Position numbers and translations under genes: made by a program. The notes under the pieces were generated by a model that had not been told where the DNA came from, did no database searches, and saw nothing but the letters and a program-made list of their open reading frames with translations. Positions 1 to 7,774 of a stretch of DNA of 64,000 nucleotides are shown here, piece by piece; the stretch's first letter is position 1, and every line of letters starts with the position of its first letter. Where the stretch lies: positions 62,001-126,000 of the forward strand of contig NZ_CAKMRU010000003.1 in NCBI RefSeq assembly GCF_928368155.1, in the 5' to 3' direction. Source of the stretch: Anaerococcus ihuae. GTDB taxonomy: Bacteria; Bacillota; Clostridia; Tissierellales; Peptoniphilaceae.

Positions 1-674
1 AACCCCTCTGGAATATTTTCTCCAAAAACTTGGCAAATTCCCCCAAGAGAATCTCCTTCACCTTCTGCTTCATCCAATAGCTTTCTTATTTCTTCTTCAA
101 TTTTTTCATCCAAAACAGGAATTTCTTTTCGAGAAATTTTTTCTAAATCAACCATGGGAGGATTTGCCAAATCAATTTTTATATCTTCTATCCCACCAAT
201 ATTTTTAATTCTTGATGAAATTTTTATATTTTTTTCTTCTAGAATTTGTTTTGCAATGCCTCCAGCAAGGCAAAACGGTGCGGTTAATCTTCCAGAAAAT
301 GGTCCTCCCCCATTCATATCGATTTCGCTACCGTATTTTATAAAACTAGTGTAGTCTGCATGAGATGGCCTTGGAATATCATTTAAATTTTTGTAATCTT
401 TGGATTTGAAATCTTCATTTTTTATTAGGGCACATATTGTTTTTGAAATTATTTTATTTTCCTTTACTCCAGAAATAAAAATTACCTTGTCGGCTTCTTT
501 TCTTTTTGTTGTAAATTTTGACTTACCTGGAGCCCTTCTTTGCATAAAGCTATCAAGTTTTTGCCTATCAATTTCAAAACCAATTTTTACATTATCCATC
601 ACCACCCCCATATATTCTTGGTGGCTTGATCCAAATATAGTAACTTTTAAATTTTTTCCAAAGCTTTGGCTCAT
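1..674 (-). CDS. aroC: Chorismate synthase, C-terminally truncated by window edge
   Basis: Makes chorismate from EPSP, the last step of the shikimate pathway, using reduced FMN. The 3' end lies outside the window; about 224 residues are visible. Recognisable family blocks are RRAPG (residues 46-50), PRPSHADY (101-108) and GGGPFSGR (122-129). The first active-site block reads GSSHQ (15-19) where most family members have GESHG, so the His is kept but its neighbours differ. The ATG at 674 starts one base after the aroF stop, with AAGGAAA inside the aroF end as ribosome site, so it is co-transcribed with aroF and shares its leader attenuator. Family assignment is secure; the variant motif is a direct observation. 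Confidence 0.93.
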   Translation of the reverse strand, partial: MSQSFGKNLKVTIFGSSHQEYMGVVMDNVKIGFEIDRQKLDSFMQRRAPGKSKFTTKRKEADKVIFISGVKENKIISKTICALIKNEDFKSKDYKNLNDIPRPSHADYTSFIKYGSEIDMNGGGPFSGRLTAPFCLAGGIAKQILEEKNIKISSRIKNIGGIEDIKIDLANPPMVDLEKISRKEIPVLDEKIEEEIRKLLDEAEGEGDSLGGICQVFGENIPEG

Positions 675-675
675 T

Positions 676-1686
676 TTAGATTTCCTTTCTTAAATCGTGG
701 ATTTTTTTGCTTGCCTTTAAAATTTTATCAAAATCATCTGGGACTACACATTGGGCACCGTCTGAAAAAGCCTTGGCAGGATTTTCGTGAACCTCAATCA
801 TTAGTCCATCAGCCCCAACAGCTGCCGCAGAAAGAGACAAATCTTTTACATATCTTGAAATTCCAGCTGCATGAGATGGGTCAATTATTACAGGAAGGTG
901 AGTTTTTTCATGCAAAAATGGAATAGCAGTGACATCCAAAGTATTTCTTGTTGCAGTTTCAAAAGTCCTAATTCCCCTTTCACAAAGAATTACCCTTGTA
1001 TTTCCCCTGCTCATTATATATTCAGCTGCCATCAATAATTCTTCATAAGTTGCAGCCAAGCCTCTTTTTAATAAAATAGGCTTATCAGTTTCACCAAGAG
1101 CCTTCAACAAATCAAAATTTTGCATATTTCTTGCCCCAACTTGTAAAATATCTACATTATCAAAATATTTTAATTGGTTTATTTCCATAATTTCTGAAAC
1201 AAGGGCAAGACCAGTTTCCTCTTTTGCTTTTACAAGATAATCAATGGCTTTTTTTCCATAACCTTGGAAAGAATATGGGCTAGTTCTTGGTTTAAAAGCT
1301 CCTCCCCTTAAAATTGTTGCTCCAGATTTTTTTATTTTTTGAGCTATTGATACAATTTGCTCTTCACTTTCAACTGAGCATGGTCCTGCCATAAAAACAA
1401 AAGACCCACCTCCGATTTTTGTTCCATTTTCAAGAGTAATTATTGTATCTTCTGGGTGAAATTTTCTGTTTGCCTTTTTGTATGGTTCTTGGATTCTTAT
1501 TACATCATCAACAATTTTTTTTGATTTCATATCATCTTTTGAAACCTTGGATGTATCTCCCAAAAGTCCCAAAATCGTAGTGTTTGTACCAACTGCCTTA
1601 CTAACTTTAAGACCCATATCTTCAATTTCTTTTATCAAAGCACTTAACTCAGCTTCATTAATATTATTTTTTAATTTAATAATCAT
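676..1686 (-). CDS. aroF: 3-deoxy-7-phosphoheptulonate (DAHP) synthase
   Basis: Condenses PEP and erythrose-4-phosphate to DAHP, the committing step of aromatic amino acid synthesis. At 336 aa it is the type I-beta form with an N-terminal ferredoxin-like regulatory domain (about 1-75), as in Thermotoga, followed by a TIM barrel. Visible barrel motifs are GPCSVES (101-107, metal Cys103), RGGAFKPRTSPYSFQG (127-142) and IIDPSHAAG (267-275, metal His272). The N-terminal domain in this type usually binds Phe or Tyr as feedback inhibitor. Start ATG at 1686 has ATCGGAGG upstream. First gene of the aroF-aroC operon, behind the Phe/Tyr leader peptide and attenuator described separately. Confidence 0.96.
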   Translation of the reverse strand: MIIKLKNNINEAELSALIKEIEDMGLKVSKAVGTNTTILGLLGDTSKVSKDDMKSKKIVDDVIRIQEPYKKANRKFHPEDTIITLENGTKIGGGSFVFMAGPCSVESEEQIVSIAQKIKKSGATILRGGAFKPRTSPYSFQGYGKKAIDYLVKAKEETGLALVSEIMEINQLKYFDNVDILQVGARNMQNFDLLKALGETDKPILLKRGLAATYEELLMAAEYIMSRGNTRVILCERGIRTFETATRNTLDVTAIPFLHEKTHLPVIIDPSHAAGISRYVKDLSLSAAAVGADGLMIEVHENPAKAFSDGAQCVVPDDFDKILKASKKIHDLRKEI

Positions 1687-1717: not shown

Positions 1718-1749
1718 TAAAAAAGCTTCCTGGCTATTACCAAGAAGCT
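1718..1749 (-). terminator. Attenuator terminator of the aroF leader
   Basis: On the minus strand a 10-bp stem (arms 1740-1749 and 1724-1733, one G-U pair) with loop TAATAG is followed by a T run and lies 38 bases before the aroF start. Being between promoter and gene it must be regulatory. Its loop and 3' arm (AATAGCC at 1732-1738) can instead pair with GGCTATT at 1794-1800 in the leader, which would prevent the stem from forming. Confidence 0.88.
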
Positions 1750-1772
1750 AAAATTCAAAAAACTTAAATCTT

Positions 1773-1865
1773 TTAAAAATTTTGCACATGATAAATAGCC
1801 TTACTTTTGTCAAAAGTAAAGTTAAAAAAGTAAAAGCTATTTTGTGTAAAATTTAAGTTTTTCAT
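1773..1865 (-). CDS. Phe/Tyr-rich leader peptide of the aro operon
   Basis: A 30-codon reading frame with ATG at 1865 and an AGGAG ribosome site 7 bases upstream. It contains seven Phe and two Tyr, with Phe11-Tyr12-Phe13-Phe14 and Phe16, Phe18 clustered. It lies between a good promoter and a terminator hairpin and just upstream of the DAHP synthase gene. By analogy with pheA and trp leaders, ribosome stalling at the Phe/Tyr run would occupy RNA segment 1826-1842, freeing 1793-1808 to form the antiterminator. The peptide itself probably has no other function. Sequence features are seen directly; the regulatory role is inferred. Confidence 0.85.
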   Translation of the reverse strand: MKNLNFTQNSFYFFNFTFDKSKAIYHVQNF

Positions 1866-1893
1866 TATTTTCTCCTGTTTTAAATTTTTTTAT

Positions 1894-1922
1894 ATTATAG
1901 CACAGATAAATTTTTCAGTAAA
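1894..1922 (-). promoter_or_regulatory. Promoter of the aro leader and operon
   Basis: Minus-strand TTTACT (1917-1922) and TATAAT (1894-1899) are separated by exactly 17 bases. It lies just after the stop of the upstream pyrophosphatase gene, so the aro operon starts here and transcription should begin near 1887, giving a leader of about 200 bases. Confidence 0.8.
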
Positions 1923-6512: not shown

Positions 6513-6604
6513 GTTTATTAGTTAGATAGCGCTTGACGCTTTATTGTACAAGGTTACATGACATTTCTTATGTGGATGCACAACTATTTTTTTCGGAGGT
6601 TTTT

Positions 6605-7774
6605 ATGATTTTTTTGGGAATTGATGTTTCTAAGTTTAAACATAACTGTTTTCTTTCTGATGGGGATAATTTTGATATGGGGGAACATTTTGAAATTAAG
6701 AATTCTAGAGAGGGTTTTGATTTTTTAATTGATAAACTTTCTTCTTATGATAGGGATAATATTAGAATAGGATTAGAATATACTGGTAATTATCATCTCA
6801 ACTTATCTAGATTTCTTCTTGATTTGAATTTTAATATTCACTTTTTTAACCCTTTTCAAACTTGTCTTTTTAGAAGAGCTGATAGTTTTAGAAATACTAA
6901 AACTGATAAGGTTGATGCTTTCTTCATTGCTAAGCTTTTAAAAACTACCTGTGATTCTAATCCTACTCTTTTTGAATTTTATCATAATTATGATCTTAAG
7001 TCACTATGTAGGTATAAGTCTATTTTGAAAAGGGATAGGTCTAGATTAAAAAACTCTATTGTTTCTTTTTTGGATATTGTTTTTCCTGAACTTTGTAATG
7101 TTTGTAATGATGTTTTTTCTAAGTATGTTCTTGCTATCCTTTATGAGTTTTCTTCTGCTTATGAAATTTCTAAGGCTAATATTACTAGGCTTTCTAATTT
7201 AATTAAGAATGCATCTAGAGGTGCTTATTCTAAGGATAAGGCTTTGATTATTAGGGATGCTGCTAGAAATTCTATTGGGTATTTTTCTTATTCTGTTTCT
7301 TTTCAATTGAAACAGTCTATTGATTATTTGTATTTTTTGGATAGGAAAATTGATGAGATTAATGTAATGATTAAGCCTTTACTTGATGATATTAATAGTC
7401 CTATTATGAGTATTCCTGGTATTGGTATTGAACTTGGTCCTACTATTATTTCTGAAATTGGGGATATTAACAGATTTGATTCTTCTTCTAAGTTGTTGGC
7501 TTATGTTGGTTTGGATCCTTCTATAAGTCAATCTGGGACTTTTCATTCTTCTTTTAGTACTATGAGTAAAAGAGGTAGTTCTTATTTGCGTGATAGTTTG
7601 TTTAAGGCTGCTTTTATTATTAGTCAAATTGAACCTGTTTTTAAAGAATATTATTTAAAAAAGAAGGCTGAGGGAAAACATCATTATGTGGCTCTTACTC
7701 ATGTAGCAAGAAAATTGGTTAGGGTAATATTCTATTTATTGAAAGAAAATGAAGTATATGTGAGTAAAGTTTAA
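6605..7774 (+). CDS. IS110-family transposase (DEDD recombinase)
   Basis: A 389-residue recombinase that cuts and joins DNA under guidance of a bridge RNA. N-terminal RuvC-like DEDD domain: Asp7 (GIDVSK), Glu58 (GLEYTGNY), Asp101 and Asp104 (TDKVDA). C-terminal Transposase_20 domain has IPGIGIELGPTIISEIG, then GLDPSISQSG with the likely catalytic Ser. The frame opens at 6533 but CGGAGG lies just before the ATG at 6605 and the protein start MIFLGIDVSK fits the family. The coding strand is strikingly T-rich, unlike the A-rich coding strands of neighbours, consistent with acquisition. Appears intact. Confidence 0.95.
   Translation: MIFLGIDVSKFKHNCFLSDGDNFDMGEHFEIKNSREGFDFLIDKLSSYDRDNIRIGLEYTGNYHLNLSRFLLDLNFNIHFFNPFQTCLFRRADSFRNTKTDKVDAFFIAKLLKTTCDSNPTLFEFYHNYDLKSLCRYKSILKRDRSRLKNSIVSFLDIVFPELCNVCNDVFSKYVLAILYEFSSAYEISKANITRLSNLIKNASRGAYSKDKALIIRDAARNSIGYFSYSVSFQLKQSIDYLYFLDRKIDEINVMIKPLLDDINSPIMSIPGIGIELGPTIISEIGDINRFDSSSKLLAYVGLDPSISQSGTFHSSFSTMSKRGSSYLRDSLFKAAFIISQIEPVFKEYYLKKKAEGKHHYVALTHVARKLVRVIFYLLKENEVYVSKV

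Follow-up and report, generated by a model that had tools for sequence, protein, structure and literature searches.

The aroF-aroC-pheA operon of Anaerococcus ihuae is very probably controlled by ribosome-mediated transcription attenuation, as judged from a leader of the trp/phe type that lies directly upstream of aroF, the DAHP synthase gene. The parts of this attenuator are present and conserved, its two mutually exclusive RNA pairings coevolve, and the choice of aromatic codons in the leader peptide follows the branch gene of the operon. The operon is probably switched on when phenylalanine is short. On a broader scale, it seems rather likely that aromatic leader-peptide attenuators of one old and widespread family govern the first shikimate enzyme in one DAHP synthase clade across Bacillota, with members in Peptoniphilaceae and other families of their order, in Acetobacterium, in Ruminococcus- and Acutalibacter-type Clostridia and in Veillonella. 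On this view, each evolutionary switch of the branch gene between pheA and tyrA would go along with a re-coding of the attenuator's amino-acid specificity, Phe and Tyr codons being exchanged while the kind of leader stays the same. All coordinates refer to the analysed window, a stretch of 64,000 nucleotides (contig NZ_CAKMRU010000003.1, positions 62,001 to 126,000).

The leader and its operon

On the minus strand of the window, the region 5' of aroF holds a candidate promoter, an AGGAG site, a 30-codon frame rich in Phe and Tyr codons (translation MKNLNFTQNSFYFFNFTFDKSKAIYHVQNF) and a terminator with a T-run (Table 1). A previous sequence-only reading of this DNA had described these elements, and a check of the sequence recovered the AGGAG, the frame with its seven Phe and two Tyr codons, and the terminator. 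The latter comprises 11 base pairs (5 of them G-C) and a 4-nt loop followed by the T-run, and terminators are expected by chance at a mean of 0.0 in shuffles of the leader region. The proposed promoter stood in part: the motif is present, but promoter-type matches are no rarer in shuffles of this AT-rich region (2 found versus 3.0 expected). A TATAAT -10 element lies at the equivalent place in ten copies of the leader in the genus, as compared by eye. The window also contains a frame on the plus strand (6533-7774), which we take to resemble an IS110-type transposase.

The genes are ordered aroF-aroC-pheA, the start of pheA overlapping the end of aroC. Since pheA follows aroC, the operon includes a phenylalanine-branch enzyme; the operon proposed earlier was aroF-aroC, and pheA belongs to it as well. 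The pheA protein scores above the Pfam cut-off for PDT and below the NCBIfam cut-offs for prephenate dehydratase models. A profile search of the source genome (94% complete) gave no match to PF02153 (tyrA); of the 31 Anaerococcus genomes, 8 have one, and in 7 it lies above the cut-off. The nearest named genomes are those of Anaerococcus senegalensis, A. obesiensis, A. vaginalis, A. hydrogenalis and A. jeddahensis, whose AroF proteins are 93-94% identical. In a further Anaerococcus genome, a DAHP synthase-like stretch (G029:C2:64075-64809) carries two in-frame TAA codons and is perhaps a decaying gene.

Table 1. Features of the aroF leader and its operon (window coordinates unless stated otherwise)
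Feature	Position	Strand	Basis
Candidate sigma-70 promoter TTTACT-17-TATAAT, TG before -10	1894..1922	-	motif match
Shine-Dalgarno sequence AGGAG of the leader frame	1872..1876	-	read from sequence
Leader ORF, 30 codons, 7 Phe and 2 Tyr, stop TAA 1775-1773	1773..1865	-	related leaders in relatives
Control codons Phe11-Tyr12-Phe13-Phe14, Phe16, Phe18	1812..1835	-	aromatic run kept in relatives
Outer 5' strand of the 1:2 hairpin, AATTTTACACA	1843..1853	-	own-versus-swapped test
Segment 1, AAATAGCTTTTACTTTT, with control codons 11-13 and part of 14	1826..1842	-	predicted fold
Segment 2 (pairing with segment 1), AAAAGTAAGGCTATTT	1793..1808	-	predicted fold; own-versus-swapped test
Segment 2 (pairing with segment 3), antiterminator strand GGCTATTTATCA	1789..1800	-	own-versus-swapped duplexes
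Outer 3' strand of the 1:2 hairpin, TGTGCAAAATT	1778..1788	-	own-versus-swapped test
Segment 3, TGGTAATAGCC: apical 5' strand of the terminator, loop, first two 3' bases	1732..1742	-	
Intrinsic terminator: stem-loop 1749-1724, T-run 1724-1719	1719..1749	-	-15.9 kcal/mol alone
aroF, DAHP synthase with N-terminal ferredoxin-like domain	676..1686	-	PF18152 and PF00793
aroC, chorismate synthase (start only in window)	1..674	-	directly after aroF
pheA, prephenate dehydratase	G000:C3:60604-61605, outside window		PF00800
Upstream gene, putative Mn-dependent inorganic diphosphatase			

Mutually exclusive pairings in the leader RNA

In the predicted fold of the leader transcript, segment 1 pairs with segment 2, as had been proposed from the sequence (1842-1826 with 1808-1793); the fold has a z-score of -4.7, equalled by 0 of 200 shuffles. 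The leader frame extends through segment 2. The best antiterminator pairs GGCUA(u)UUAUCA with UGGUAAUAGCC and occupies the apical 5' strand of the terminator, its loop and the first two bases of its 3' strand. The complementarity GGCTATT/AATAGCC noted earlier is present, but the best antiterminator is longer than this 7-mer.

Folding of a transcript that ended at 1734, just past the terminator loop, yielded the antiterminator when a ribosome was placed at codon 13, 14, 16 or 18. With the ribosome at codons 11-12, the antiterminator core CUAUU/AAUAG formed beside a local hairpin, which also takes part of segment 2. A ribosome at the stop codon left the terminator as the fold, and without a ribosome the full 1:2 structure and the terminator were obtained. 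Once complete, the terminator has the lowest energy of all forms in each of the six stalled states that were folded (codons 11, 12, 13, 14, 16 and 18); the switch must therefore decide kinetically, like other attenuators. In the fold obtained with no ribosome, the first leader codons at 1851-1862 (AAAAACTTAAAT, minus strand) are complementary to the pre-terminator spacer at 1758-1769 (ATTTAAGTTTTT), and this pairing closes the whole leader into one long helix. By eye, several copies of the pheA clade keep the helix; in L009 and L010 it cannot readily be recognised.

A test of the attenuator had been set beforehand, namely that relatives should conserve both the peptide and the mutually exclusive stems, and the result was positive across Peptoniphilaceae: leader, 1:2 hairpin, antiterminator and terminator are all kept with compensatory change. 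Terminator and segment 2 vary between the genera of the family yet still fit each other. The antiterminator strands pair as GGCUA(u)UUAUCA/UGGUAAUAGCC in Anaerococcus, as UUUUGGG/CCCAAAA in L013, L014, L031 and L032, as GAGGUUAGCUGC/GCAGAUUAACUU in L015 and L035, and as GUUGUUUUGCUGC/GCAGGAAACAAC in L040. In 18 leaders of 8 groups, the antiterminator duplex averages -13.8 kcal/mol with its own strands versus -9.0 kcal/mol with swapped ones, and the true pairing is the best of 40320 permutations, the strand limits having been set by eye before the permutations; for this test L005 was omitted as a near copy of L003, and for L032, where the caller took the second hairpin as terminator, the first was used, set by hand. 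The 1:2 hairpin of the same set yields -19.8 kcal/mol (own) versus -14.5 kcal/mol (swapped), and 3 of 40320 permutations are as good. Since the MAFFT alignment misplaced the outer 3' strand of this hairpin, only the inner helix was counted on the alignment, and assessment of the outer strands relied on the own-versus-swapped test. In this inner helix, which was itself derived from the same sequences, 126 of 126 cells are paired, 3 of 7 pairs show changes on both sides, and 0 of 500 shuffles score as high.

In an extended comparison of 119 leaders, each of the two pairings was more stable in own duplexes than in shuffles (median z -1.68 and -1.82, with p-values that ignore relatedness). Individual z-scores are modest, about half of them lying below -1.64. 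In 92 of the 119 leaders, the antiterminator strand ends at the stop codon or before it, and in 10 it starts at the stop codon or later; in 16 of the 19 Peptoniphilaceae leaders, the stop codon follows 7-35 nt after the strand.

Distribution of the leader

Leader DNA was found at E < 1e-13 in 10 of 31 Anaerococcus genomes, which are the ten with this aroF, and it adjoins aroF there. A second copy of the leader in the genus was sought as well; the best extra match among those listed (G013:C10, E 3.5e-6) shows no leader by eye and was rejected as an AT-rich chance match.

For a wider survey, a caller with fixed settings was used: a Shine-Dalgarno sequence, a frame of 12-65 codons, at least 5 Phe, Tyr or Trp within 10 codons, and a terminator before the gene. 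It found an aromatic leader with terminator before 127 of 224 DAHP synthase genes, or 119 of 216 when repeated genus loci are left out. Genes with less than 200 nt of upstream sequence (L024, L025, L026 and L178 among them) were not counted, L041 was left out of the run, and for L151-L230 gene positions were taken from known match coordinates. Two doubtful calls, L089 and L183, were kept in all counts. By group, leaders were called at all 10 Anaerococcus loci with this aroF, at 9 of 20 genes of other genera of the family (none being called at the other 11), in 18 of 28 from other families of the order, in 28 of 88 from a sample of the phylum, and at 62 of 78 named loci, 8 of which repeat genus loci. 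The phylum sample and the named loci contain some leaders that are identical or nearly so (L124 and L067, for example).

The same caller found 2 leaders on the 224 antisense strands and about 0.3 per 224 in shuffles. Before other genes of the same loci it made 3 calls in 644, in a control that covered the loci up to L150 without L042-L049 and in which the stretch before a gene need not be intergenic. One of the three begins 165 nt (55 codons) upstream of aroF and probably represents aroF itself with an earlier start codon; the second, at L103, lies 1102 bases before aroF on the same strand and ahead of another gene, so that leader and terminator may control a longer operon there; the third is unrelated.

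The phylum sample (398 genomes, 337 with a match) is not random with respect to aroF: the 29 best new loci were taken together with roughly every second of the rows listed next, 60 in all. Leaders precede 21 of the 29 nearest DAHP synthases and 7 of 59 further out (one row was too short). Being frequent near this AroF and rare further out, the leader accompanies DAHP synthases similar to this one and is no general trait of Bacillota. Named bearers include Veillonella (7/7), Acetobacterium (6/6), Ruminococcus (4/5) and Acutalibacter (2/3).

Aromatic codons and the branch gene

Within the 10-codon windows of the leaders, 66% of codons are aromatic in frame versus 15% and 22% in the other two frames, a bias that is partly built in because the windows were chosen for aromatic content. 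TTY codons outnumber TTR codons by 394 to 6 in these windows, and Phe and Tyr both occur in the window in 102 of 119 leaders.

The share of Phe among the Phe and Tyr codons, F/(F+Y), has a mean of 0.79 (range 0.60-1.00) in 20 leaders with pheA downstream, many of which are near copies (eight represent one Anaerococcus clade, and the doubtful L183 is among them), and a mean of 0.51 (range 0.00-1.00) in 74 leaders with tyrA downstream. Of the remaining leaders, 16 have only aroB or aroC in the available sequence and 9 lack a match or downstream sequence; for many loci, the branch-gene calls cover about 1.7 kb downstream, and branch genes further on are missed. A tree of 77 AroF proteins requires at least 6 changes of the pheA/tyrA label. 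A comparison of five independent pairs was possible with a threshold of 0.65 chosen by the analyst: on average 4.1 pairs differ in the expected direction, 0.9 show no difference and none is opposite; the median p of the sign test is 0.125, five pairs being too few to reach 0.05. A tree-corrected regression on the 77 leaders, at the best-fitting of three lambda values, gave an effect of +0.264 +- 0.085 (p = 0.0028).

The exchange can be seen within genera. The Anaerococcus clade with aroC-pheA has leaders such as that with 7 Phe and 2 Tyr (6/4 in L008), and two Anaerococcus genomes with the order aroF-tyrA-aroB have the runs AYYYY and AYFYYYF (Phe/Tyr 3/4 and 5/4). In another genus of the order, the pheA-linked L161 holds 13 Phe and 4 Tyr codons and the tyrA-linked L022 holds 7 and 10. 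Before the separate tyrA of G030, no leader was called.

Proposed mechanism and alternative explanations

The region before aroF combines a frame with an aromatic run that is predicted to be translated, control codons within segment 1, which pairs with segment 2, a segment 2:3 alternative that excludes the terminator in folds of partial transcripts (the full transcript favours the terminator), and an intrinsic terminator before the first structural gene. These elements could act in the following manner: When charged tRNA-Phe (and tRNA-Tyr) is plentiful, the leading ribosome would pass the aromatic codons and reach the stop codon at 1775-1773. There it would cover distal segment 2, the core 1:2 hairpin would presumably re-form behind it, and the terminator at 1749-1724 would end transcription. 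Under shortage of Phe (or Tyr), the ribosome would stall at codons 11-18 on segment 1 and leave segment 2 free; this segment may then pair with the emerging UGGUAAUAGCC, blocking the terminator and allowing RNA polymerase to reach aroF. If the leader is not translated, the 1:2 hairpin and the terminator would form and transcription would stop. That the leader is translated, that the ribosome stalls, that transcription terminates and that the switch responds to starvation are deductions in this scheme.

Several other explanations of the same sequence have to be weighed. The leader could be a constitutive terminator of the upstream diphosphatase gene next to a chance frame; AT-rich DNA readily yields Phe and Tyr codons, and no terminator was reported between the upstream gene and the leader. 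The low yield of the caller on antisense strands, in shuffles and before other genes and the coevolution of the two exclusive pairings speak against this possibility, which we regard as most improbable. An untranslated RNA switch, be it a riboswitch or a protein-bound RNA with an incidental frame, would account for the strong structure of the leader. It would leave the in-frame aromatic bias, the excess of TTY over TTR, the AGGAG before the frame and the dependence of codon content on pheA or tyrA without a reason, and neither the leader nor 20 related loci matched an Rfam family at gathering score; such a switch is very unlikely. TnaC-type arrest turns expression on in excess of the amino acid. 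Sensing of free Phe or Tyr by the nascent peptide itself in a TnaC-like manner, rather than of tRNA charging at the codons, is suggested by the conserved short peptide with its partly fixed residues such as A-Q and G/S-K-A. These residues, however, coincide by eye with the base-pairing strands, Phe and Tyr interchange along the run with a content that tracks the branch gene, and the sign of the response would be wrong for a biosynthetic operon, which makes this reading highly improbable, too.

Control of aroF by a T-box or in the TRAP manner has a negligible probability. A T-box does stand before one leaderless aroF (L227, 1 of 20 leaderless genes scanned), and the search thus detects a T-box where one exists; in the window and in 20 related loci, both leader-bearing and leaderless, none was found at gathering score, and the anatomy differs. 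The sole Rfam match of the window is a distant tRNA, and a T-box or other known Rfam leader over this region was rejected. The Rfam amino-acid leader families (Phe, Trp, His and others) gave no gathering-score match over the leader or in the 20 related loci. A permissive scan of 1690-1950 returned 11 matches (tsr26, PyrR, U7, the trpB motif and others), each below its gathering score and taken as chance; the only amino-acid leader among them is the trpB motif (17.5 versus 59 bits). Attenuation according to the trp/phe logic, which the sequence-only reading had put forward, hence stands as the best explanation, supported by the comparative data.

Relation to known attenuators

Ribosome-mediated attenuation is a textbook mechanism. 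The anatomy of trpL and pheL consists of a leader peptide with control codons, mutually exclusive 1:2, 2:3 and 3:4 pairings and an intrinsic terminator; in trpL, the stop codon lies before segment 2. The Anaerococcus leader resembles these proteobacterial leaders in its control-codon peptide, its 1:2, 2:3 and 3:4 pairings, its terminator and its position before a biosynthetic operon of the presumably sensed amino acid. It differs from them in that it has no Rfam leader match at gathering score and in that its frame crosses segment 2.

Attenuators of the trpL/pheL type are mentioned in the accessible part of a paper that also describes Corynebacterium glutamicum aroR-aroF, according to which a Phe-Tyr-Phe leader responds to limitation of Phe and not of Tyr (PMC11802643). 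By this description, the two systems share a Phe-Tyr-Phe leader before a DAHP synthase operon, the C. glutamicum one being actinobacterial. In Acholeplasma, aroF is preceded by the motif uORFC-13-1, in which a terminator adjoins a uORF that contains one or more Phe codons; its 24 representatives are, in the part of the source available, from Acholeplasma and environmental sequences only (PMC8632094). The likeness, by description only, lies in the Phe-codon uORF and terminator before aroF; the same part of the source mentions neither a mixed Phe/Tyr/Trp run nor matching of codons to the branch gene (PMC8632094). The earlier statement that no example is described in this lineage is thus not contradicted by the open-licence literature searched, but, going by the available parts of these two papers, a Phe uORF or leader before aroF is known in Acholeplasma (PMC8632094) and Corynebacterium (PMC11802643). 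In Firmicutes, leader peptides of histidine genes (PMC2965389, PMC9413887) and a leucine-rich attenuator peptide of Staphylococcus aureus ilv (PMC5794164) have been described, as far as the accessible parts of these sources go. As portrayed there, these are likewise cases of leader-peptide attenuation where a T-box might be expected, and they concern other amino acids and operons.

Searches of the open-licence literature yielded no report of the leader family in Peptoniphilaceae, Veillonella, Acetobacterium or Ruminococcus-like Clostridia, and none of a leader codon content that follows pheA or tyrA. The mechanism as such is already known; the breadth of the family in Bacillota and the matching of codons to the branch gene lend it more than local interest. 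T-box or TRAP control is the usual assumption for aromatic genes of Firmicutes, a picture that a broad leader-peptide family before DAHP synthase would change. Such a family would also supply naturally varied switches for a direct comparison of control-codon content, sensed amino acid and branch gene, and it offers a testable case of how the specificity of an attenuator can evolve without rebuilding of its RNA.

Some genomes carry two neighbouring aroF genes, namely those of L015 (G048) and L035 (G134) as well as G576:C3 and G581:C39 (L156/L160 and L159/L163, respectively). At L035 and in G576 and G581, a leader stands before one gene of the pair and none before the other. Finally, a leader of this kind (L065) lies on a MAG contig labelled Coriobacteriaceae (Actinomycetota).
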